DNA of 64,000 nt from Cristatella mucedo (lineage: Eukaryota > Bryozoa > Phylactolaemata > Cristatellidae), in NCBI GenBank assembly GCA_009760855.2, contig WPIO01000002.1, positions 5,451,001-5,515,000 of the forward strand. The letters are read 5' to 3'. The notes under the pieces were generated by a model. That model saw nothing but the letters and a program-made list of their open reading frames with translations, made no database searches and was not told where the DNA came from. Made by a program: the position numbers and the translations under genes. Shown piece after piece: positions 4,881 through 63,387 of the stretch; the first letter of the stretch is position 1; every line of letters starts with the position of its first letter.

Positions 4881-7017
4881 CTTCAAATGATGCACAGTGT
4901 CAAGCTCAGGCTAGAGCGTCGTTTCAAGAAATCGGGGTCTAATGCAGATCTAGTCAATTTCAAAGACTTCCTTCGAGTTTACACCCGGAAGCTTAAAAGA
5001 GCCAGGGCTTCTTTTTTCACTCAAAAACTGAATTCCTGCCAGTCCAACCCAAAAAAGATTTGTAAGACAGTAAACAATTTACTGGTCAATGCTGAAAGGT
5101 CTGACTACCCAGATATGAACGGCTCAGCCGAAAGGTTTTCAGCCTTCTTCACTGAAAAAATTGTGCACATTCATGCTTCTAGAAAGCCCACACCGAGTAA
5201 AGCAATTGTGGAATCACAACCTGTGACCTTTCTTAAAAGATTGTCCGAGGGTTCTGCATGCGATGTGGCTACCTTAATAAGGTCTAGTAAAAAGGGCTCA
5301 TCTCCTGAAGACCCTATATCATCATCTCTGTTGTCTTCACTGGTAGACCAACTTAGCACAGCCATGCCCGATATGCTTAATGTTTCTTTGGAAAAGGGGA
5401 CTGTACCCAAGTCCTTCAAATCGGCGATTGTTGGACCCATACTTAAAAAGCCTGGATTAGATACAGAAGTCCTTGCAAACTATCACCCAGTTTCCCTTCT
5501 TTCTTTTTTGTCAAAGATTCTTGAAAATATTGTCGCTAAGCAGCTGGTCGCACATATTGAAAAGAATAAAATGTCAGAAACATTTCAATCATGGTTCAAG
5601 AGGCAGCACTCCACTGAAACTGCTCTCCTCCTTGTTAACAATGACATTCTATGTGGCAACGACTACGGGAATGTCACAGCCCTAGCTATGGTAGGTCTGT
5701 CAGCTGCCTTCGACACCATTGATCGCGATGTTCTACTTGAACGATTGAGAACAACGATCGGTCTGGCAGACGAGGCACTTGCATGGTTCAAATCGTACTT
5801 GTCTGATCGTGTTCAATCCGTGTCGTGTGGGGGTCAGGTCTCACAGTCTCACACACGAGACGGGTCACCTGCGGAGTCCCTCAAGGATCCGTTCTCGGTC
5901 CCTTGTTGTTCTCCATTTATACTCAAGCTCTGGGAAAAGTGACGAAGGCCCATGGAATAGAATATCACTTTCATGCTGACGATACTCAGCTGTGGTTGTC
6001 ATTCAAACCGTTGGAATCTGCTGCAGCAACTCTAAACTGATTGCTTGCCTTGCCGACACTCGATCCTGGATGTCGGAAAATTTCTTGAAACTAAAACCGA
6101 ACTGCTGCTCATAGGACACCCTTGGCATGTGACTGGATTAAAAGGCTTTGCTATACTAATATGCGATACCGTTGTGCGACCATCACCACGTGCTCGAAAT
6201 TTAGGTGTCGTTTTTTCGACAGCTGCTTACATTTTTAAAGCTTGATTCCGAGGACTAATTCTACAGCTAGCCACCACGTCCGATCCTTATCTAAGAGAAG
6301 GAGCTGTCTTCCGTGGTGTCTAGCACACAATTTAACTAGCTCCTTAGTTCTGTCTCGGCTTGATTATTGTAATTCCTTTATGGCTTGGCTACCAAAGAAA
6401 GCAACTAGGCCACTGCAGCTGGCTATGAATATGGTTGCAAATAATGAATATGGTTACAAGGCTAGTTTTTAAGTCCCAGAGGTTTGACCACGTGTCTTCT
6501 TTGCTTAAAGAGCTAGGATGACTGCTGGTTAATCGACGGAGACAGAGCAAAGTTCTTACGCTGACTCACAAGGCCGCGACGGCTTGGCTCATCCATACCT
6601 AGCAGAGCTGCTGCACCAGTGACAGCCTCTTCGTGCCCTCAGGTCCTGTATGGACAATAAAGCTGCTCAATTCTTTCGCTTAAAGACCGTTGGCGACAGA
6701 AGCTTTAGCTCTGTAGGTACTAGACTGTGGAACTCGCTTCCACAATTCTTATGCAACGACAACTACTCTCCTACTGCCGACTATGGCTCATCCGTTTCAG
6801 CGGTCCCGAGCTGCTTCTTCCATGCTACTCACTACCTCAACTGCTCTCCTGACTCTGCTATGCTTCCCACTTTCTCTTTGTTGCGTGAGATGAATTATGT
6901 TGGCTACCGAGTGCGTACCGAAAGCCGTTTAGGCTGTGGGTACGCTATACAAAACTCTCCTGCGTAATACCTCATGACCTCTATGGCTCTGTGTAGTTAT
7001 AGACAGAGATACATTAC
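4881..7017 (+). mobile_element. LINE-B, longest copy (reverse transcriptase pseudogene plus 3' end)
   Basis: A non-LTR reverse transcriptase begins in the frame at 4887 (351 codons): thumb/finger region, the ILKKPGLDTE and HPVSLLSFLSKILE motif near 5440-5530, and AFDTID with the first catalytic Asp near 5706. A frameshift near 5850 moves [16 protein letters not shown] and the catalytic HADD (usually F/YADD) near 5972 into another frame. Stops follow at 6038 and after. C-terminal blocks SRLDYCNS (6355), KKATRPLQLAMNM and TVGDRSFSSVGTRLWNSLP (6690) precede a 3'UTR ending in gatacattacaata. The 5' endonuclease part is missing. Non-functional. Confidence 0.9.
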
Positions 7018-8517
7018 AATACTAATTTATAAAGCTAGAGTAGTGTCTCTCAGCAAGTAATTTATTGGCCGGTAAAAGTTGTATTCGGTTAAACGACGCC
7101 AATTTTGAAGAAATTTCTCACCAGGGTCGCTGCAATAAACGAGTAACTCCATAGTAATGCAATGGGAATTCAGATTTGTTCGCTTAAGTTGCTAAGTAAT
7201 TTCTTTCAATTTTCCCTATTGACAAATTTAATCAAAAAGTAAGCCTATTTCATTACCATCCTGTGGGACTTGTGTGGAGACTTTTGTGCTAGCTGGTGAT
7301 TATCTGTATGGTGTATCTGCTAGCAATTATTCCTGTCAAGCTGCCAGTGTAAAAGCAACGTTTGGGGGAAATGTGAAATTACTGGATTGTAATGAAATTG
7401 GTTGCAGACATCAATAAACTGCATGAACTTCTAAAACAAATTTGAGCTTCCCTCGCTCTGTCTGTCTGATATCCTTGTTGTGACACTAGAATTTATAATT
7501 CTATGGACAGGTCAATCACTCTATTTTAGGAATGGGCAACTGCATTTTGCTACTTTTAAATTTCCACATGGACATAGGCACTGCGAGGCGGTAAATCTCT
7601 GCTGGCCTAAAACAAATGCCTTTAGTCCTTTATTGTGGTTCTCTAAGTTTATTTTTACTAGTTTTATTAGTTTTTACCAGTCTAAGTTTCCATCATCCAA
7701 ATTAAAATACTGGTATTTTTTAGATGCCAGAGTGAAATAAGGACCAATCGAAACGCATGCCACTACTTAAGATTCAGCGAAGTGACCTATTGATGATGCC
7801 TTTGAAGATGATTTAAAATCACCATGCATTTTGGTCATCATCCTAGTTCATAACGAAGATTCCATTCACTACATCAATAAACTAAAAGCTCTTAGAATGA
7901 CAGAATAATCCTGAGAACAAGAGCTCAACTGAAATCAAGATAAATTTGAGTCTTCTGCAGAGCCTTTCTGTGCAATGGCGTTTGCTTTGAAATTCTGTCG
8001 TGCTAAAGGCTTGGCTTGGCGTTCTATATCCATATCAGAGCTTAAGCGTTCTGAGATTCTCATGCACTTTAAGACTGAATGCTTGAAATAGGCTCAATTT
8101 TCTCGATCAAGCCCTGGGTCCTTGCCTTGGATCTGGTCAGCCGGTGCGCACTTGCGAAAAAAATGATCATTTTCGAAATCGCTGTCTTTCTGCTGACGAA
8201 TATAACTCGATGAGCCCGACATTTTTAGCCTATTTGCATATAATTTGGGCAATATTTAGGTAGTTATCGCAGTCCGCACGCACCCGGGTTACATTGTAAT
8301 CCGGGTTAACGCCATCGGGCTAATATGTCTACTGCAAAACGCAAGGACAGCGATAGAAAACCTATCTTGACTATAGCCACCTAAGGAAAACCATGGATTT
8401 TGGCAAAGAGCTGAATAAAAAATCTGTGGATTTAATTACCAAGCATTCTAAGATCTTGGTTGTGGTCAAGGTAAGAAAATGCAATTCATCTCTTATCTCT
8501 TATCTCTTATTATTCAT
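7018..8517. other. Intergenic sequence, nothing recognised
   Basis: Contains an 86-codon open frame at 7480-7740 rich in aromatic residues, with no similarity I recognise. No repeat boundary seen. Confidence 0.5.
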
Positions 8518-8822
8518 CTCTTATTGAGGTAGTGAGTAGCATGGATGAAGCAGCTGAGGACCGCTGAAAAGAATGAGCCGTAGTCGGCAGCAGGAGAGTA
8601 GTTGTGGTTGCGTAAGAATCGTGGAAGCGATTTCCACAGTTTAGGACCTGCAAAGCTAAAGCTTCTATCGCCAACGGTCTTTAAGCAGATGAATGAAACA
8701 GCTAAGTTATTGTCCAATAGGGCCTGGGGGGCACGAAGAGGCTGAAACTGGTGCAACAATTCAGCTAGGTATGGAGGAGCCTAGCCGTGGTGGGCCTTGT
8801 GGATCAGCGTACGAACTCTGTA
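8518..8822 (-). mobile_element. LINE-B fragment, minus strand
   Basis: The reverse strand encodes LLHQFQPLRA, then LKTVGDRSFSFAGPKLW, the C-terminal block of LINE-B. Truncated on both sides. Confidence 0.85.
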
Positions 8823-10825: not shown

Positions 10826-11185
10826 ACGCTTAAAGACAGTTGGTGACAGAAGCTTTTGCTCTGCAGGTCCTAGACTCTGGAACTCGCTTCCACAATTCTT
10901 ACGCAACGACAACTACTCTTCTACGGCCGACTATGGGATATCCTTTTCAGCGGTCCTGAGCTGCTACTTCTATGCTACTCACTACCTCAACTGCTCTCCT
11001 GACTCTGCTATGCTTCCCACTTTCTCTTTGTTGCGTGAGACGAAATCTGCTGGCTACCGAATGCGTAACGAAAGCCGCTTAGGCTGTGAGTGCGCTATAC
11101 AAAACTCTTGCCTAACACCCACATGGTCTTTATGACTTTGTGGAGTTACAGATGGAGATTACATAACATATTACATAACATAACG
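10826..11185 (+). mobile_element. LINE-B 3' fragment
   Basis: Starts in the TVGDRSF-type block, continues through the CTATGCTTCCCACTTTCTC region and the terminal reading frame, and ends with a degenerate ATTAC-type tail (gattacataacatattac). Confidence 0.85.
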
Positions 11186-12038: not shown

Positions 12039-12473
12039 GGCCGCTTCAGCGACTACATACGCAGCTGCTATCTCGCCAGCGCCCGCGCTAGATGCCCCAG
12101 CCGCATTTGCGTTTTTGTTTTCTTTTGCGATCAGCAAATCAAAGAGAATGTGATTACGACGCCACGGCGCTAGCGGATGCCGCTCTGAGCGAAGTGGAGG
12201 TCGAAGACGTTACAATGCGTCACATCCCAGTAGATTGGCTTATATTGCGCTTCTGGATACGGCAACTCCACTGGACCGTGATGCGGACCGGCGGGGTTGC
12301 CGCCACCTTTCGGTTGAATATGCGATACCCAAAATTTACTTCCCATTGACTGAAAGAGATGCAATTTAAACAGTTTGAGTTAGTTTTGTGCCGCCAGTCT
12401 TTCAGCTAGACGACACGAGCTTCTTTTATCAAGCTAGTCAATAAATTTCTACCCAAAAAAGTGGTATGTGAAA

Positions 12474-12605
12474 TACATATTGTGATAGTGCCTTAAGAGA
12501 ACTTAATCTCTATTCGGGTGCCTTACTTTTACGCCAGAGCTCGAGCACACAACCCTGATCCTTTGAGGTGAGCTCCTTACGAATGGATCAAATCAAGGCA
12601 AATTT
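12474..12605 (-). mobile_element. SINE-1, decayed copy, minus strand
   Basis: The left side has the LINE-A-like tail in reverse (gtgccttaagagaacttaat, then ctctattcgggtgcctta). The tRNA-like head to the right is poorly preserved (gagctcgagcacacaaccc). Confidence 0.7.
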
Positions 12606-13121: not shown

Positions 13122-13183
13122 GATATATATATATATATATCTGTCCTACATATATATATGTATATATATATATATACATATAA
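13122..13183. repeat. (TA)n microsatellite, interrupted
   Basis: Two (TA)n blocks separated by ctgtcctaca. It is directly attached to the tail end of the SINE-1 at 13184 and probably represents its 3' tail. Confidence 0.9.
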
Positions 13184-13322
13184 TTTACATAGCGCCCCAA
13201 GAAAACTTAATCTCTATTCAGGCGCTTTACATATGCCTCGGGGCTCGAGCCCATGACCTCAATCAGACCTTGGTCGGGGCGAGAACCTTAACAGCTGGAC
13301 CAAACCAGCTCGGCATCGGAAA
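13184..13322 (-). mobile_element. SINE-1, best-preserved copy, minus strand
   Basis: Read on the minus strand it has an A-box-like TGGTCCAGCTG, then a B-box-like GGCTCGAGCCC, then ATGTAAAGCGCCTGAATAGA, GATTAAGTTTTC and GGGGCGCTATGTAAAT, ending in (TA)n. The head is tRNA-derived and the tail resembles LINE-A. Confidence 0.82.
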
Positions 13323-14130: not shown

Positions 14131-14625
14131 CCACCTCTTCGTTGAGCGTTTAGTTTGTCCCTAGCCTTACGTCACTTAACCGTAGTCGTAATCAAAGCAG
14201 AAAAAAAACAGCTAGGCACCTGAGTTTTTATGTTGGCAGAATTTTTCAGTACTGCATTCACATTGTACTTGAGGATTTGAGGACATAGAAAAATGTAGCT
14301 TCCCGTTTCTTTATAGGTAACCGTATCATAGAGTGACCGGTGACCGTATCATAGAGCTGCAGGCGTCAGTTACACAGTAAAAGATCCGACAGTTGGAGGA
14401 CAATTTTATGTTTTATTAGAAGCTTTGCCATTTATTAGCGTCAACCACCTTTACAGTTGCAACCCATTTATTTTACTAAATGACTCCAAACGTAGCTTCT
14501 ATGCTAGCTGCTGCACCGTAAAAAGAATCATTCCCAGCAATGAATGTATTGTTAAAATTACCAAAAACTTCTTCCCTACGAGGCTGGTAACGACGCTAGT
14601 ATAACTTAAAAAATATATCACTGGT

Positions 14626-14752
14626 ATAGCGCCCTAAGAGAACGTAATCTTTATTCCTGCTCTTCAAATAGTCCAAGGCGCTCGACACCTCGATGATCAC
14701 ATACATTCACATTGACCTTGGTCTGGGTGAGCCCCTTAACCACTGGGATAAA
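14626..14752 (-). mobile_element. SINE-1 copy, minus strand
   Basis: The tail part tatagcgccctaagagaacg is at the left. The head at the right ends ccttaaccactgggataaac, equivalent to the A-box region. It immediately abuts the LINE-A at 14753. Confidence 0.75.
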
Positions 14753-15592
14753 CCAGTAATAATAAAAATAATAATGGACTTGATAGAGCGCCCCCAGAGA
14801 ACTTAATCTCTTTCTAGGCGCTTTACATTTGCTGCAGAGGGAAATGCAATTAAATTGTAAGTAAAATAATCCCTGAAAAACAAACAAAATGAATAATATG
14901 GTTGGGGGTAACATGCACAGGGTCAGCATGCAAATGTGGTTAGTGGCAGCATGCACAGTGTCAGCACGCATAAGCACATCAAGGACGAATCACAGGGACC
15001 CCCTAAATGCTGTCCTAAATAGGTGTTTTTAGGTTCCTTTTAAATGTGGTCAGGTCAGGGGATGTTCTGACGCAGATCGGGAGGGAGTTCCAGGCTTTGG
15101 GAGCATACGAACTAAATGCACGGTCTCCAAAGGATTTGAGTTTTTTACGAGGTATTTGTAGACTGTTGGATTCCGAAAAGCGGGTGGTACGATGCTTGGC
15201 CTGATGGGGTAGTACATCTGAGAGATAGGCTGGAGCCATAGAATGAAGGGACCTAAAAGTGAGCGACAAAACCTTGAAGTCAATCCGTTGCTTGACTGGT
15301 TGCAAGTGCAGGTCGGCGAGAAGTGGAGTAATGTGGCAACTATGATGCTCACGACAGACAAGCCTAGCTGCAGAGTTTGGCACCGGCTGCAATCGCCTGA
15401 TCGCACATGCTGGTAGGCCAGTAAGCAGTGAGTTGCAGAAGTCGAGACGGGATGTCACGAATGCATGGACCAACTTGGACGTGGTATCCTTATCTGAGCA
15501 AGCCCAATTTTAGCAATGTTATGAAGCTGAAAATAGGCAGATTTGAATGTGGAGCTGATATGGTCGTCTAACGAGAGGTCGTAGCCAGATGA
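14753..15592 (-). mobile_element. LINE-A 3' fragment, minus strand, well preserved
   Basis: The minus-strand frame 15473-15015 encodes 152 residues without a stop: SRLDFCNSLLTGLPACAIRR, NSAARLVCREH, ADLHLQPVKQRIDFKVLSL and SFGDRAFSSYAPKAWNSLP. These are the standard C-terminal blocks of L2/CR1-like reverse transcriptases. The 3'UTR contains TGTAAAGCGCC-type sequence and ends in (ATT)n at 14753. It closely matches the copy at 31749-32562. Confidence 0.92.
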
Positions 15593-17080: not shown

Positions 17081-18132
17081 CCACCGACTCGCTTCAGAGT
17101 CGCTCCGCACGCTTTCAGCTCTAAGCTGTTTGGCTTTACCGGTTAGGTAAACCACCTGAATTGCATAAAATTCTGGCTTCAACAGGCAAATATGTTTTCA
17201 TGCACGCACCGGTTGGATTTAGGGTGTCTCGCGCACCCTTACCGGACACCCTTGTCTGCCCCTTTCTGAAACTTCTGTAGTCAGCCTGTACGGGTAGCTT
17301 CGCACTCAAGGCTGGGAGTTTCTGGACGCGGAGGGCAAGGCGGCGTGGCGCATGGCGGCAGCATTCTTTCCAAGGTACTGCTCACACGACGGGATTACTT
17401 TATTTCCTCTGCCTCCTCCATTGCGGGGCCTGCAAATCCAATCAATCGAACTGATGCATTGTTGATGTTGAAGCGGCGAAGTGCTAGACTAGCCAGATTG
17501 TTGCTGCGTAAAGATTATTCGCGGTTCCTGATATAGTGCACAGTCAGCCTCTCGAATTTCGACTTGGGAAATTCGGAGATACAAAATCGGCAGCGGTCAT
17601 GAAAACAATCAAACTTTATCTAAGAAAGCATTCGAAATTCGCGCGTAGTTAATTGATTTGACGATGCCAAAGACAATATGAAGAAACGATGACTGACAGC
17701 TATGCACTGCGGGTACTTAATGATCTCCTAAGCTTGCGTGACGACTCGCTAGAGGTAAGGCGTGTTCAGAGTGGTCTCGTGCATTCATATGTTTAGAGGG
17801 TCTCGCGAGGGCCAAGAGAAAGAGCAAGTTGCTGATCCTCCGGCAATATCGTCCAAATACTCTTCACCATCATAATTATTTTACCTCTTAATGTCCTCAT
17901 CAGAAGTTATCGTCGTAGGATTAATTTTATACCATTCTTGACTTACGAACTTTGGTGGCATGAAAGTTGGTCAAGTAATATTCCGTCAGTTGTGCTTTCG
18001 GCCATTAGCGTGGCTGGAGTTTCGCCAGCGACCTCGATTCAGGCAGTTAAGAGGTGCCCTGGGCGCCGGGTGAGTTGCCGTACGTCATGGCTGATTCTGG
18101 ACGCCCGTGGGTTTATCGGGGCTTCACCTAAA
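17081..18132. other. Intergenic sequence, nothing recognised
   Basis: Locally GC-rich near 17100-17350. Short frames only. Confidence 0.5.
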
Positions 18133-18788
18133 AGTCGGCTTGATTATTGTAATTCCATTTGGGCTGGGCCACCAAAGAAAGCAACTAGGCCACTGCAGCT
18201 GGCCATGAATATGGCTGCAACGCTAGTCTTCAAGTTCCAGAGGTTTGAGCACGTGTCTCCTTTGCTAAAAGAGCTAGGATGGATGCCGGTTGATCAACGG
18301 ATACAGAGCAAAGTTTTTACGATGACCCACAAGACCCGCCACGGCTTGGCTCCTTCGCACCTAGCTAAACTGCTGCACCAGTTTCAGCCTCTTCGCGCCC
18401 TCAGGTCATTTGTGGATGATAAATTAGCTGTTCCATTCTCCGCTTAAAGACCGTTGGCGACAGAAGCTTTAGCTCTGCAGGTCCCAGACTGTGGAACTCG
18501 CTTCCACGATTCTTACGCAACGACAACTACTCTCCTACTGCCGACTATGGCTCATCCTGTTCAGCTGTTCTGAGCTGCTACTTCCACGCTACTCATTCCT
18601 CAACTGCTCTCCTGACTCTGCTTTGCTTTCCATTTTCTCTTTGTTGCGTGAGACGAAGTCTATTGGCTATCGACTGCGTACCGTAAGCCGCTTAGGCTGT
18701 GAGTGCGCGATACAGCACTTTTCTGCGTAACACCCACATAGTTGTATGGCGTTGTGGAGTTACAGACGGAGATACATTACAATTCATG
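18133..18788 (+). mobile_element. LINE-B 3' fragment, well preserved
   Basis: Encodes SRLDYCNSIWAGPPKKATRP, FEHVSPLLKELGWMPVDQRI and LLHQFQPLRALRS. After a frameshift near 18430 come the TVGDRS block and terminal frame ending CECAIQHFSA. The 3'UTR reads ccacatagttgtatggcg, then gagttacagacggagataca and ttac. Confidence 0.9.
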
Positions 18789-21310
18789 GCAAGTCAAAGG
18801 CTGAGCCCCGAAGCTCACGACTTCGATGGTATTTGTCACGCTTCGTCGGCATAGTGCCAGCTCTGCCACGAGCGCTGCGCTCGCGGTCTGGACCTTTCCG
18901 GACGCCGTCGCCCCTAAATCCTGTTTCTAATAACATTAATTGGAATTCGTTTCGTCATCGAGTACTTAACACTTCCCGTCGAAAGCGCGCGCCGACGTGG
19001 CACAACCAGTTGCCATGCCAGTTCCTTTCATTTTACGACATTGTTCTACTGACTACCAACGAATCCGGCGTGACACCGGCCGAGGGGGCTTCGGACGGGG
19101 CTGAGAGCCATAGGTGATGTGAACGCTACCGTGCCACTCGCACGAGCCGCGGCACTGCGACAGCCGGAAATATGGAAATGTTTTCAGTTGTGTTCAGAGC
19201 ATACCTTTTCGCGTAGCCGAAAAATAACTGCGAGCTGTAGAGCTTTTCAAGTGTCTCCGAATTACCATTGCATGCTAAGAATCAGTACAATCACCTGAAT
19301 CTGAAATCGTGCACGTTACACCAACTACTTGACCGCGTTTCCTTTACGGCATATGTGTAGTGCCTATTAAAGACTTAAGTTCTCTGAGGACTCTATATAA
19401 ATGCATTGTCATTGTTATTATTGAGGGCTAGCTAAGATTTTAGCAGGGGTTAAATCGCGAACTAAATGGGCCAACGAAAGTTCGATGGCGTCTCTTCAAA
19501 GTCTCTCGGTAAAAGCTATTTAAACTCTCTGCCAACTTATTATTTAACCTGTCAGCATAATCCTAGCCGCTCGCAAAACTCAAAATTTTTTGGAAAAGCT
19601 GGAAGTATCTTGCAAACTACGCAGCACCTGGAAGTCTTTTTTAAAGCGCTAAACAAAAGACATTCTGCTCGATTCTCTGTATCCTGGAGCGGCACGCCGA
19701 TGGCACGCCACGCAACAGGTCTCCGCAAACCTACTCAAAAGGAATTGGCGTTTTCATGGCGCACACAAAATACGATCGCTCTTTGAAAAAGTTATAGTCC
19801 CTTTGGAAATGAACAGTGAACGGGCACGTCGGTGGCGGCGAAATGCTTCTCCAACCTTTCTAGACCCTTTAACAGGCAGTCGGTTCCAGTCTGGATAATC
19901 TTCTATATAAAATATATAATAAATAGCGCCCCGAATGGCCGAAGCCCCGCCGGCTTCTAGATACGCTCTACATGTTCGCTTGCCCCTATCGCGAGCTTTC
20001 ATATTAGGTAAGGCTAAAGGCTCATTCGATGCTGATCGCTTAGCCCTACTATGATCCAGAGCTAGAGCATTCAATAATGAGACTGCTGAATTTTAAAATC
20101 TTCGGGCGACTTGCTACGGCGAATGTACGCAGGGCATTGCTGTTTCGCGGCATACAGAACTTGGACAAGCTAATTTTTTTCCTCGGCGTTCCCTAAACGG
20201 AAATATTTGAGACGACTTTTGCCCACGTCGAAAGAGTGGCAAGCAGCGCTAGACCACTGAAGGTAGCCGCACAAACTGCTGGGCGTCCTTAGCTTCCTCC
20301 TTGACCTCGACAGCTCCCGGTTGAAGCAGACGGCGAGGCCGCCCCGCAGACCTCGTTAGCGCCAGGCAATGAGCTAGATGATTTAACAGCCTCACTTGTA
20401 TGGCGGCAGCTATGAGCCCTACCTGCGATCGTCGCACTTGCGGTCGGCAGTAAGGATCGCTCCACGTGAAAAGTCTCGATAGGCACTCTCCTGGACACCT
20501 TGAACCTGCACTCCCGCACGGCTCGCAGCCGAGTTTCCTGTGCTCCTCCATAAAACGCGTCATCGTTCTATTGGAGAGCTCGAAGCTGTGCGACACGCGG
20601 GCACGCAACCCGCTGCGAGCCTCTTTAGACTCGTTCGCCTAAAAGGATATTTTCCCCCAATGAGGAGAGCCTGAAGCTTCGTGCAGGTGAGCCGTTCGAC
20701 GTGCCTTTTGAGACACGTTCACGATTGATCAACTCTTGGCCGACGATTCTTAAGGTACTATCTCCCACTTATAATAAACGACGACCCCTTGGGAAACCGA
20801 CCGTGAGAACGGAAAGCGAGCGGAAAGCGAGCCAGTCTAGCAGCCTCATCTCAAAGGAACAGGTAGACTAGAGAAACACGCCTAAACTAGAACTAAGAGC
20901 TAGAGAAACACGCTTAAATCTGTGCGCGGAAGGCGAGCCGAGAGAGACGTGACTCTACAGACTGCTCTCTTAGCCTGGTGCTCCTTTCCGAGCGGCTTCC
21001 CGAGGAGCTGGGCTACACGGCTTCCAGGCGAGCTCCAGCCACACTCCACAGCAGCGCTACGCCCCCTCAGCCACCCATCCTTAACGCCTTGACCTGCCAC
21101 TGATCCGTCTGCCCGTCTGCGCCCCACTGACCTGAGTAATAGAACAGGCCGCCTATTCGCGACTTCCCGGAAAACCTTGAAACCAACGGATCATTCAATC
21201 TTCGATTGATCCGCGATCGGATTTTTGATTGATCAACCATTGATCAATCCTCCTCGTCCGGTGTGGAAACGCCCTTTCGGCTACCCGTGCGTACTGATTG
21301 TCTAAAAGCG
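18789..21310. other. Intergenic sequence, GC-rich 20.2-21.1 kb, one LINE-A tail
   Basis: A plus-strand LINE-A tail scrap is visible at 19340-19425 (taagttctctgaggactcta then tataaatgcattg). The GC-rich part at 20.2-21.1 kb has open frames up to 119 codons on the minus strand, consistent with base composition. No gene supported. Confidence 0.45.
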
Positions 21311-22213: not shown

Positions 22214-22330
<117 letters not shown>

Positions 22331-22660
22331 ATTCTTTTTGTGTAGCGCCCTGAAATAACCTATTCTCTATTGTGGCGCTTCACATATGTCGCGGGGCTCT
22401 ACCCCACGACCTTAAAAAAATCCTAGCTGATTAAACAGCCTCTTTTTGTATAGCGACAGAAGAGCCTTTACGGCTATCACCACCGCTTGCAGTGGCGATA
22501 AAGAATCGCCCACCGCAGGAATCGAACCCACGACCTCGGGAACGAGGTCGTGAAAGCAACCGCCTTATCTAGTGTGTCATCACGACCTTAGTAATCAACT
22601 GTATTCACCTTGACATTGCTCGGGGACCTTAATCACTGGCCCAAACCAGCGCAGCGTGCA
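22331..22660 (-). mobile_element. SINE-1, minus strand, interrupted by SINE-2
   Basis: The left part 22331-22414 carries the tail and B-box region (tagcgccctgaaataaccta, then ggggctctaccccacg). The right part 22581-22660 carries the head (ccttaatcactggcccaaac). A 10-bp sequence, cacgacctta, flanks the insert on both sides. Confidence 0.8.
22415..22580 (-). mobile_element. SINE-2, intact-looking, inserted into SINE-1
   Basis: Read on the minus strand: A-box-like region ACACTAGATAAGGCGG (best match to the consensus in the copy at 33067), a short palindromic ACGACCTCGTTCCCGAGG, B-box GGGTTCGATTCC, then the body ending TTTAATCAGCTAGGATTTTT. Flanked by 10-bp direct repeats (22405-22414 and 22581-22590). 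Confidence 0.88.
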
Positions 22661-23248: not shown

Positions 23249-25109
23249 ATATTGTATGGGAATGTATTCCATTGGCTTATAAAGCATGGACATCATTCGC
23301 ATTCGCGTCAATTCAAAGTCAAGTGATGAGCCGTCAAGCCATTTAAACATGCTCAAGGCATTAGGTGCAGTTTTTCCGCCAACTATGATAATAACAATAG
23401 TAACTGATCTTACAAGTCGCACAAGAGAATCAATACCAAGGGCTAGTTACATGGACGGTATCAAATATGAAAAAGGCAAGCATAGTTTTTTTAGCCAGTA
23501 TGCTAAAGAGCACATGAAGGTGCTTATGGCTGGTACCTGTTAGTAAGACATTTGGCTCGTAACATGCAACGAATCATGCACAGGTAAGCACTCAAAGCAC
23601 ACCATACAGCTAACTGTCAGACATTAGCAGACCAGATTCTGGGCATGAAAAAACACAGCTCGAATAAGTAACTAGATCCTAGTCCGAAGCTTCTGAAAAT
23701 ACTTAACGAAGCATGCATCGGAGAATACTGAGTATTGCGTCACTCGAAGACGAGTGAACCGCCAGCTTTCTCGTCGCAGTCTCACATTAACGTGTAACTG
23801 GAATCTAAATACTAACAAATAAGAAAAGACTAAGAAATTCCAAACCTCTACGTACAAGAGTGAGCTGTAGCTATTGCGCCGTTGATTCTGTACCATTTCC
23901 TCGATAATCAAAGTATGGGCAAGCAGCCACACACCCCCTTACAGCCCCCTGTGTCGAGGTCGTCCAATCGCGTACTCTGGTTTCAAAGGTTAGCCAGTCG
24001 GAAAAGCCTTTATACAGGTCAGTGGTTCATGCCGATAGCCGGATTACTAGGAACATTATCAGCATAATTCCTTTAAATTTTTTACTTCATTAATTAAATG
24101 CATAGTATAAATAAGTTTTCAGATATGATACGGGTGGTCTCTTTAGACTTGGTCTGGCCTAAGCTGGAGAAGTCTGCAGTGAGACACTTGCCAGTATGGC
24201 AGCGCCCATTATGGTTGCGTGAGGGACTCGATATCCGTGAAGGTTATATCGTGCTAGAGACCTATAGGTCCGTACTTTATTTTCGCAGCTATTTTAATTG
24301 CTATATTCGTTGTGGTTTATTTAAACTGAAATGATCCTACGGTAAAACGATAGCATCTCTATTGGATGCCGTGCGTACCGGAGTAACCAAGAGGTGGCAG
24401 CTCGATACATGCATCCAGTAATACCGTTCGACCTTAGTATCGATTCGTTTCAGCTCCAGCCTTTTGGCTCATGTGTTGACGCTCGCTAGCCCCGTGTTGG
24501 CGATGATTTTCTATACGGCAGCTTCGTTATGATTCAGCGCCCGGGCTGGTAGAGCCATTTGCACTCAAGCTAGCCTAAAATCATCGGGGTCTCTTACCAG
24601 CTGGACCGGTGGCGCTTCATGCTGCCGCTCATTTAGGTACCTGGAAGTTGTCGCCAGTTCTAAGCTAAGTGCCATGAAATATGTGGCTGTAGGCTTTCAG
24701 AAGCAGTGAAATGTCAAGCAGTATGGTTGTGCAAATGCTACCGTTTGTTAATTTGATCGCCTATACTCTTCTGGTGCTGTTGTGGAATACCTACCGTGAC
24801 GTTTATGGCGTTTTTGCTTTTCAGGTTTGTTCAAGCCCGATTTCCATCGCGTTTATCTTGAGTACTGAGCCGGTGATTAATTGATAAATCACTGCTGTCT
24901 GGATTTTTCCGATGTGTTCATAATAGCTTGAGGTTAAGAATAGTGATAACACATTTGAATAGCACCATCGGAGAACTAAATCTTGTGCAAGGTATTTTGC
25001 ACATACTGTAATGAAAGTGCATCAATTAGTGATAAGCACCCATTAGCACACAATGGGCAAGTCACATGGACCCAGCAAAGGTTGTTACAAGCAGGTATGT
25101 TTCTACCTT
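22661..25109. other. Intergenic sequence with (GA)n tract; several unassigned frames
   Basis: Open frames at 22678-22947 (89 codons), 22982-23326 and 23286-23543, separated by a (GA)n tract at 23179-23245, are on the same strand. I recognise no family. They could be a decayed gene or chance. Confidence 0.35.
23179..23245. repeat. (GA)n microsatellite
   Basis: Uninterrupted GA dinucleotides; it produces artificial Arg-Glu repeats in two frames. Confidence 0.97.
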
Positions 25110-25592: not shown

Positions 25593-26058
25593 ACTGAAAG
25601 CACACTGACCCACAAGGCCTGCCACGGTTTGACTCCTCCATACCTAGCTGAACTGCTGCATTAGTTTCAGCCTCTTCGTGCCCTCAGTTCCTGTATGGAC
25701 AATAAATTAGCTGTTCCATTCCTCCGCTTAAGGACCGTTGGCGACAGAAGCTTTAGTTCTGCAGGTCCTGGAGTGTGGAACTCGCTTCCACAATTCTTAC
25801 ACACGACAACTACTCCCCTGCTGCCGACTATGGCTCATCCTTTTCAGCGGTCCTGAGCTGCTACTTCTATGTGACTCACTAGTTCAACTGCTCTCCTGAC
25901 TCTGCTATGCATTCCACTTTCTCTTGTTGTGTGAGACGAAGTCTGTTGGCTACCGAAAGCCGCTTAGGTTGTGAGTGCGCTAAACAAAATTCTCCTGCTT
26001 AGCACCCACATAGTATTAATGGCTTTGTGGAGTTACAGACGGAGATACATTAAAACTC
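25593..26058 (+). mobile_element. LINE-B 3' fragment, left arm of inverted pair
   Basis: Encodes the LTPPYLAELLH-type and TVGDRSFSSAGPGVWNSLP blocks, then the 3'UTR ending gagttacagacggagataca, ttaaaa. Frameshifts present. Confidence 0.85.
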
Positions 26059-26059
26059 T

Positions 26060-26640
26060 CTCTCCGCAACTCCACAATGCCACAAAAACTATGTGGGTGT
26101 TACACTGGAGAGTTTTGTATAGCACACTCACAGCCTAAGCGGCTTTCGGTACGCGTTCGGTAGCCAACAGACTTCGTCTCACACAACAAGAGAAAGTGGG
26201 AAGCAAAGCAGAGTCAGGAGAGCAGTTGAGGTAGTGAGTAGCATGGAAGTAGCAGCTAGCTGGTATGTTGCTACTCATTCATTTCTTTGATAGGAACGGC
26301 AGTAAGGAGACTGGGCCGAAGTTGCTGAGGATCTGCTGGTTAGTGTTGTCTTGTTAATGAGTTGCCTAATGACAGCCTTTTTGAAAGATGCTGGGACGAG
26401 ACTACGGTTAAGGACATATTTATAATGTTAGTGATGCGGTGCAGCAGCTAATGGATGCATCTCTTGGGTATAGAGTTTGGAGGTACTAGTAGTCTTCTTA
26501 CACTGGGAGATGAATTTCCAGGTGAGGTCACTAGTGATGGGCTTGTAGATGGATGCATGACCCTAGCCTTCTTCCAGTTCACCATCACAATATCAGCTAC
26601 TTAGAAAGCCCCTCCAACGTGGGCAATGAAGATTGGAGCC
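26060..26640 (-). mobile_element. LINE-B, minus strand, internally deleted, right arm of inverted pair
   Basis: 26060-26266 is the reversed LINE-B 3' end (ccacaatgccacaaaaacta, gcctaagcggctttcggtac). Beyond an abrupt junction, 26280-26640 read in reverse gives a decayed upstream reverse-transcriptase segment with ILSNFGPVSLLPFLSK, equivalent to HPVSLLSFLSK of the long LINE-B copy. So about 1 kb is missing between the two parts. Confidence 0.7.

Positions 26641-27028: not shown

Positions 27029-63387
<36,359 letters not shown>

Follow-up and report, generated by a model that had tools for sequence, protein, structure and literature searches.

The window analysed here, i.e., the whole stretch of 64,000 nucleotides from contig WPIO01000002.1 of Cristatella mucedo, carries several copies of SINE-1, a short element with a tRNA-like head, and of LINE-A, a longer element with a reverse transcriptase frame. 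This raises the question of which protein copies SINE-1 and where its 3′ end comes from. A sequence-only reading had noticed that the 3′ half of SINE-1 resembles the LINE-A terminus and had proposed LINE-A as the source of the mobilising enzyme. Both elements were followed in the window and across the genome (572 Mb, 688 contigs), using a SINE-1 consensus built from 29 genome loci (L010–L038) and a LINE-A 3′ end consensus built from 29 of 30 loci (L064, which is without the hairpin described below, was left out).

SINE-1 copies and the structure of the unit

Five SINE-1 copies are found where the sequence-only reading had placed them, all on the minus strand and 78–94% identical to the young genome consensus. 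The span drawn around the best of them, starting at 13122, does hold a SINE-1 copy, but it also takes in an (AT)n run (13123–13182) that is outside the element.

13183..13315, minus strand: SINE-1 copy singled out by that span, head then 3′ tail hairpin, 94% to the young consensus
12472..12595, minus strand: old SINE-1 copy, 78%
14618..14756, minus strand: old SINE-1 copy, 78%, directly 3′ of a same-strand LINE-A (ATT)n tail
22329..22655 (22329–22412 + 22612–22655), minus strand: SINE-1 copy split by a SINE-2 insertion, about 82%
57675..57824, minus strand: SINE-1 copy, 81%, directly 3′ of a same-strand LINE-A tail
13123..13182, no strand: (AT)n simple repeat adjoining a SINE-1 3′ end, outside the element proper
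22416..22582, minus strand: SINE-2, a 167-bp unit within SINE-1, with a 9-bp direct repeat AAGGTCGTG and a tail unlike that of SINE-1

The SINE-1 unit measures about 139 bp and is followed by an AT-rich end. The 3′ ends of young copies (L010–L038) vary, with (ATT)n, TATTTAT and T runs, and long AT runs are present at the 3′ end in L002–L008, the search query having itself included such a run. In the head, the consensus displays the words TGGTCTAGCGG and GGCTCGAGCCC, read by eye, which we take to be the pol III A and B boxes. ARAGORN reported no tRNA in the window and none in the SINE-1 consensus at default settings; at lowered thresholds, it returned one weak tRNA-Ala-like call in the consensus, with a poor anticodon arm. 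With Rfam, nothing in the window matched a tRNA at gathering scores, and neither did any of the four SINE-1 copies searched at a lax threshold. Of the tRNA-like head with A and B boxes proposed earlier, the box-like words are thus visible, but the head is only weakly recognised as a tRNA by either program, and it is the weaker half of the SINE-1 observation.

Across 313 kb of sequence (the window plus loci chosen for a SINE or a LINE, hence not a random sample), 53 of the 55 SINE-1 heads run on into the tail. The two others are interrupted by insertions: the window copy by SINE-2 and, by eye, a copy in L002 by a short element that has inverted ends. LINE tails, for their part, are widely present without a SINE-1 head. 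The LINE match begins at base 80 of the 139, where the tRNA-like part ends. Since nearly all heads continue directly into the tail, head and tail form a single unit that leaves no room for a central domain; judged from this junction, SINE-1 is without a conserved central domain of the CORE-, V-, Deu- or Nin-SINE type.

Some further elements were met along the way. The SINE-2 unit belongs to a second young tRNA-like SINE, of which the 40 full-length genome matches scored are at least 96% identical and almost always share their ends; its head and that of SINE-1 share the B-box region (score 27, shuffle maximum 24), which has no bearing on the tail. By eye, the element that splits SINE-1 in L002 (2215–2987) has inverted ends like GAGCCCGATGGCGGTAACCCGG, and similar sequence lies near position 8300 of the window. 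Also by eye, a SINE-1-type tail follows an apparently different, shorter tRNA-like head in L059 (2472–2525), possibly a mosaic SINE.

Direct repeats of 5 bp or longer flank 15 of the 29 SINE-1 loci (re-paired flanks: mean 3.6, maximum 10.7), and the observed mean repeat length was reached by none of 2000 flank re-pairings; at seven of the 29 loci, the flanks show no direct repeat of even 4 bp. SINE-1 is a short unit scattered over the genome in many copies, and its target-site repeats exceed those of the re-paired control.

Likeness of the SINE-1 and LINE-A tails

In the window, LINE-A and a second LINE family, LINE-B, are represented by the following features.

52455..52521, plus strand: LINE-A 3′ tail hairpin, then an (ATT)n-like repeat; the reference end of the sequence-only reading, identified by profile and fold
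51096..52304, plus strand: C-terminal part of LINE-A ORF2 in a broken copy, upstream of the 52455 tail
52574..52637, plus strand: second LINE-A tail, 5′-truncated, directly after the first
14772..14837, minus strand: LINE-A 3′ tail, with an ORF part at 15015–15580 on the minus strand
31764..31830, minus strand: LINE-A 3′ tail, with an ORF part at 32025–32558 on the minus strand
57849..57917, minus strand: LINE-A 3′ tail
58157..58220, plus strand: LINE-A 3′ tail
17938..18785, plus strand: LINE-B, C-terminal part and 3′ UTR, tail unlike that of SINE-1

Read on the minus strand, the tail of the SINE-1 copy at 13183–13315 contains ATGTAAAGCGCCT, AGAGATTA, GTTTTCTT and GGGCGCTAT, with GTTCTC in place of GTTTTCTT in other copies, and the order and spacing of these blocks match the LINE-A end at 52455–52521, as had been claimed. 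The window holds 13 occurrences of the word GTAAAGCGCC when at most one mismatch is allowed (100 shuffles: mean 2.95, largest 8), and a profile built from 20 seed tails re-found those 20, as expected, plus one at 24948–25011 (E below 1e-6).

The likeness carries over to the whole-genome consensus sequences, whose alignment had been put forward as the check to run. The two consensus tails are identical at 48 of 54 aligned positions, and the local alignment of SINE-1 with the LINE-A 3′ end scores 76, far above 500 dinucleotide shuffles (mean 16.7, sd 2.3, maximum 29). The SINE-1 head alone scores 15 against LINE-A, i.e., chance (shuffle mean 15.2), and so does the whole of SINE-1 against LINE-B (score 19; shuffle mean 16.6, maximum 29). 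LINE-B is also found at 4887–7020, 10827–11170, 25600–26060 and 8523–8822 of the window, with 3′ ends 82–89% alike. A second pair made of SINE-2 and LINE-B was considered and rejected: the two share only a 12-base word (CGCTATACAAAA), whose score of 24 was reached by 12 of 1000 shuffles.

A LINE tail fitting SINE-1 better than that of LINE-A was found neither in the LINE-B comparison nor with a 54-base pattern joining LINE-A upstream sequence to the SINE-1 tail; the latter had no match at up to three mismatches in 572 Mb, in a search that fixes the LINE-A upstream word and misses LINEs with other upstream letters. A looser pattern of 35 places gave 258 matches. Of the eight loci opened among the matches listed (L072–L079), five match LINE-A tails (L072, L074, L075, L076 and L078), L075 and L076 with the LINE-A upstream sequence too. 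The other three (L073, L077 and L079) share one SINE-1-like tail copy inside a duplicated stretch that is present at all three loci; immediately upstream of this copy, there is no LINE-A sequence. A tail pattern had no match in viral contigs or genome contigs of the searched collections, and no LINE-A relative was found in the viral contigs; these collections hold viruses and prokaryotes and are little informative here.

At three places in the window (14618–14840, 57675–57935 and 52455–52637), a same-strand SINE-1 or second LINE-A tail sits directly behind a LINE-A (ATT)n end. An origin of such arrangements as LINE–SINE chimeras through template jumping was rejected: two of the five window copies lie directly 3′ of a LINE-A tail, but none of 36 genome loci has such a tail on the same strand in the 30 bases upstream. 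At L030 and L035, there is a tail on the 3′ side of SINE-1, no more than 25 bases away. LINE-A tails have a density of about 1 per 4 kb (28 in 113 kb at the SINE-1 genome loci), so the arrangement in the window may be chance.

A common predicted hairpin and the LINE-A protein

Both tails are predicted to fold into one two-tier hairpin, in which an AGCGCCU/GGGCGCU stem of 7 bp is followed by a 4+2 internal loop, an AGAGA/UCUCU stem of 5 bp and a UUAAGU terminal loop, for a total of 36 bases. The 30 stem and terminal-loop bases are all identical between the family consensuses, and the five differences all fall within the six-base internal loop. If these differences were free to fall anywhere in the 36 bases, such confinement would have P = 1.6e-5, a value that stands for one comparison and for an ungapped one, as a gapped alignment would score part of the change as a one-base insertion plus a deletion. 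The SINE-1 consensus folds with z = −5.6, and six single copies with −0.2 to −4.7. Among 19 decayed window copies, there was no covariation (80.0% of cells paired, a level reached by 485 of 500 shuffles), and RNAalifold returned no pairs on their alignment; this is expected of dead copies, yet it is no support for the fold either.

On the protein side, the longest open LINE-A frame in the 150 scored matches is of 983 aa. The 983-aa ORF2 frame in L069 has Exo_endo_phos and RVT_1 domains, which denote an AP-type endonuclease (EN) and a reverse transcriptase (RT), and matches LINE-1 ORF2 and R2 protein chains by sequence. In two zebrafish L2 LINEs, ZfL2-1 and ZfL2-2, hairpin binding has been mapped to the region between EN and RT (Hayashi 2014, PMC4176376). 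The residues named there for the tail-binding region of ZfL2-2 are W325, R334, E341 and W344, and the basic residues of ZfL2-1 are R376, K379, R383, R387, K390 and K391, positions 369–391 of ZfL2-1 being aligned to 324–346 of ZfL2-2 (PMC4176376). When the tryptophan is placed on W335 of the L069 frame, the LINE-A linker reads WFTTDIKLAKSTKRKLEKAYKR, in which the six basic positions are all occupied by basic residues, the E position by E and that of the second W by Y. This putative tail-binding signature, i.e., nine of the nine counted residues, appeared in none of 200,000 linker shuffles and is present in the three ORFs looked at. LINE-A and the zebrafish elements thus have in common an EN–RT ORF and, at the same spacing, the W of the cTBR, the four required basic residues plus two more, the E and an aromatic residue. 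They differ in that the second tryptophan is a tyrosine in LINE-A and the proline before the first one, which is not among the nine, is a leucine; this comparison concerns the proteins. According to the same work, W325 itself is dispensable for binding and the loop decides specificity (PMC4176376); here, the terminal loop is identical in SINE-1 and LINE-A. By its EN and RT domains and its putative tail-binding residues, LINE-A is a candidate L2-type LINE.

Both families are abundant, with 8,647 SINE-type hairpins (4,307 + 4,340) and 27,469 LINE-type hairpins (13,750 + 13,719) in 572 Mb, at up to two mismatches in 35 bases, a threshold at which the reversed pattern gave 0. Because the two patterns differ at five places, the counted sets do not overlap. 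Among the opened SINE-1 loci (L002–L038, window copy included), eight of 37 equal the 139-base consensus exactly, and LINE-A 3′ ends are 93.8–98.7% identical to their own consensus. As the sampled copies were all picked as best matches, they represent the young end of both families, which look younger than they are. By eye, SINE-1 is inserted within a LINE-A copy in L024. The SINE-1/LINE-A pair looks recently active.

The probable source of the enzyme and of the tail

SINE-1 ends in the same hairpin as LINE-A and therefore most likely borrows its copying enzyme. The explanation that we favour, and consider fairly probable, is that SINE-1 unites a tRNA-like pol III head with a tail from the LINE-A lineage and is mobilised by LINE-A ORF2 through the shared hairpin. 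A tRNA-like RNA polymerase III head would have been fused directly with a 3′ tail derived from this lineage, so that the SINE-1 transcript would bear the same two-tier hairpin as LINE-A RNA. The ORF2 protein would bind this hairpin via its region between endonuclease and reverse transcriptase, and would then use target-primed reverse transcription to copy the SINE-1 RNA at a nick in the target DNA. This explanation builds on the common tail, the common predicted fold, the open ORF2 frames with their signature, the near-identical copies in both families and the short target-site repeats that flank roughly half of the young copies sampled. From these we infer that SINE-1 is transcribed by pol III, that its tail is bound by ORF2 and that the element is mobilised in this way.

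Several observations count against it: the absence of covariation among decayed copies, the weakly recognised tRNA head, the two substitutions in the LINE-A cTBR and the seven SINE-1 loci with no flanking repeat. In addition, five of the six internal-loop bases and the sequence downstream of the hairpin differ between young LINE-A, which ends in CTTTATCAAGTG, and SINE-1, which ends in CTATATAAATG. Two features of the window bear on this last difference.

46600..46665, minus strand: older LINE-A relative whose tail end, CTATAAAAATG, resembles SINE-1
19343..19407, plus strand: older LINE-A relative whose tail end, CTATATAAATG, resembles SINE-1

Both, together with L014 (2002–2067), are old LINE relatives ending in CTATANAAATG. 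When 147 tails in 289 kb were classed by their upstream sequence (51 SINE, 56 LINE and 40 other), every one of the 56 LINE-class tails was nearer to the LINE consensus than to that of the SINE. The median of the SINE class was on the SINE side, and this class contains at least one tail of LINE type that lies beside a SINE head. Some of the 40 others were nearer to SINE-1, both SINE pieces and old LINEs. Since the SINE-1 tail is, downstream of the hairpin, nearer to the older LINE-A relatives than to young LINE-A, it probably came from an older LINE-A-lineage element; in the simplest reading, SINE-1 took its tail there and both families kept the recognised part. Hence, the proposal of LINE-A as the enzyme source is supported by the shared tail, the EN and RT domains, the young and abundant copies and the binding signature, but the likelier donor of the tail is an older relative.

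The main competitor is a less abundant sister LINE, with a tail ending in CTATANAAATG, that would mobilise SINE-1 and leave LINE-A as only a cousin of the true partner. LINE-A relatives with this end do exist (the three just given and L075), and downstream of the hairpin the sister-type relatives are closer to SINE-1. However, those seen look old and decayed, the 54-base pattern had no match (although sisters with other upstream letters could escape it), the LINE-class tails all score closer to young LINE-A, and young LINE-A has exactly the same stem and loop, which are what zebrafish L2 LINEs have been shown to read, so that we regard such a sister as rather unlikely. Far less likely still is that the tail is the fossil of an old capture, SINE-1 moving by relaxed recognition of its AT-rich end: the variable 3′ ends of young copies would agree with this, but the 30 stem and loop bases still match young LINE-A though the internal loop changed, and the 53 of 55 heads that carry the tail leave only two exceptions, both split by insertions. 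The reversed direction, with a LINE-A ancestor acquiring its tail from a SINE, is compatible with sequences from this one species; we give it very little credence, as LINE-A relatives both young and old carry the tail, which forms the last part of a longer LINE 3′ UTR. Finally, convergence or chance among L2-type tails, of which the short word common to SINE-2 and LINE-B may be an example, is highly improbable given the SINE-1/LINE-A score, the scores of SINE-1 against LINE-B and of SINE-2 against LINE-A lying within their shuffles.

Selection may have kept all stem and terminal-loop bases while the internal loop of one partner was rewritten. In that case, either the LINE-A protein would read stem and loop and ignore the internal loop, or SINE-1 would have adjusted its own internal loop so as to compete for the enzyme; we advance this only as a tentative idea.

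By its 3′ end and predicted hairpin shared within one genome, the SINE-1/LINE-A pair falls, from its sequences, into the known class of stringent SINE/LINE pairs. Fifty-eight SINEs with LINE tails have been reported, mostly with CR1 and RTE LINEs and with one protostome entry, Gecko of Aedes (Ohshima 2013, PMC3747384). Stringent pairs with L2-type LINEs include UnaSINE1/UnaL2 (eel), HAmo SINE/HAmoL2 (carp) and V-SINE/L2-4_XT (frog) (PMC3747384), and experimental evidence for a 3′ hairpin in several LINEs is cited in PMC5135761. Like SINE-1, the SINEs of these three pairs combine a tRNA-like head with a tail common to a LINE of the same genome, such pairs having a 3′ hairpin (PMC5135761). SINE-1 differs in that its head sits directly on the tail, with no room for a central core, and in its own UUAAGU loop, the comparison being one of descriptions and not of tail letters. 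The pair did not appear in the titles and abstracts searched; SINE-1 may still be identical with one of the published mollusc SINEs (Matetovici 2016; Luchetti 2016, RUDI).

The pair described here adds a recently active-looking and very abundant case to these systems and, from sequence alone, connects an RNA hairpin with a candidate binding site on a protein. If the tentative idea on selection were true, SINE-1 and LINE-A would amount to a natural mutagenesis experiment on hairpin recognition. Because the partners are identical in stems and terminal loop and different in the internal loop, a six-base swap would directly probe L2-type recognition beyond the zebrafish elements.
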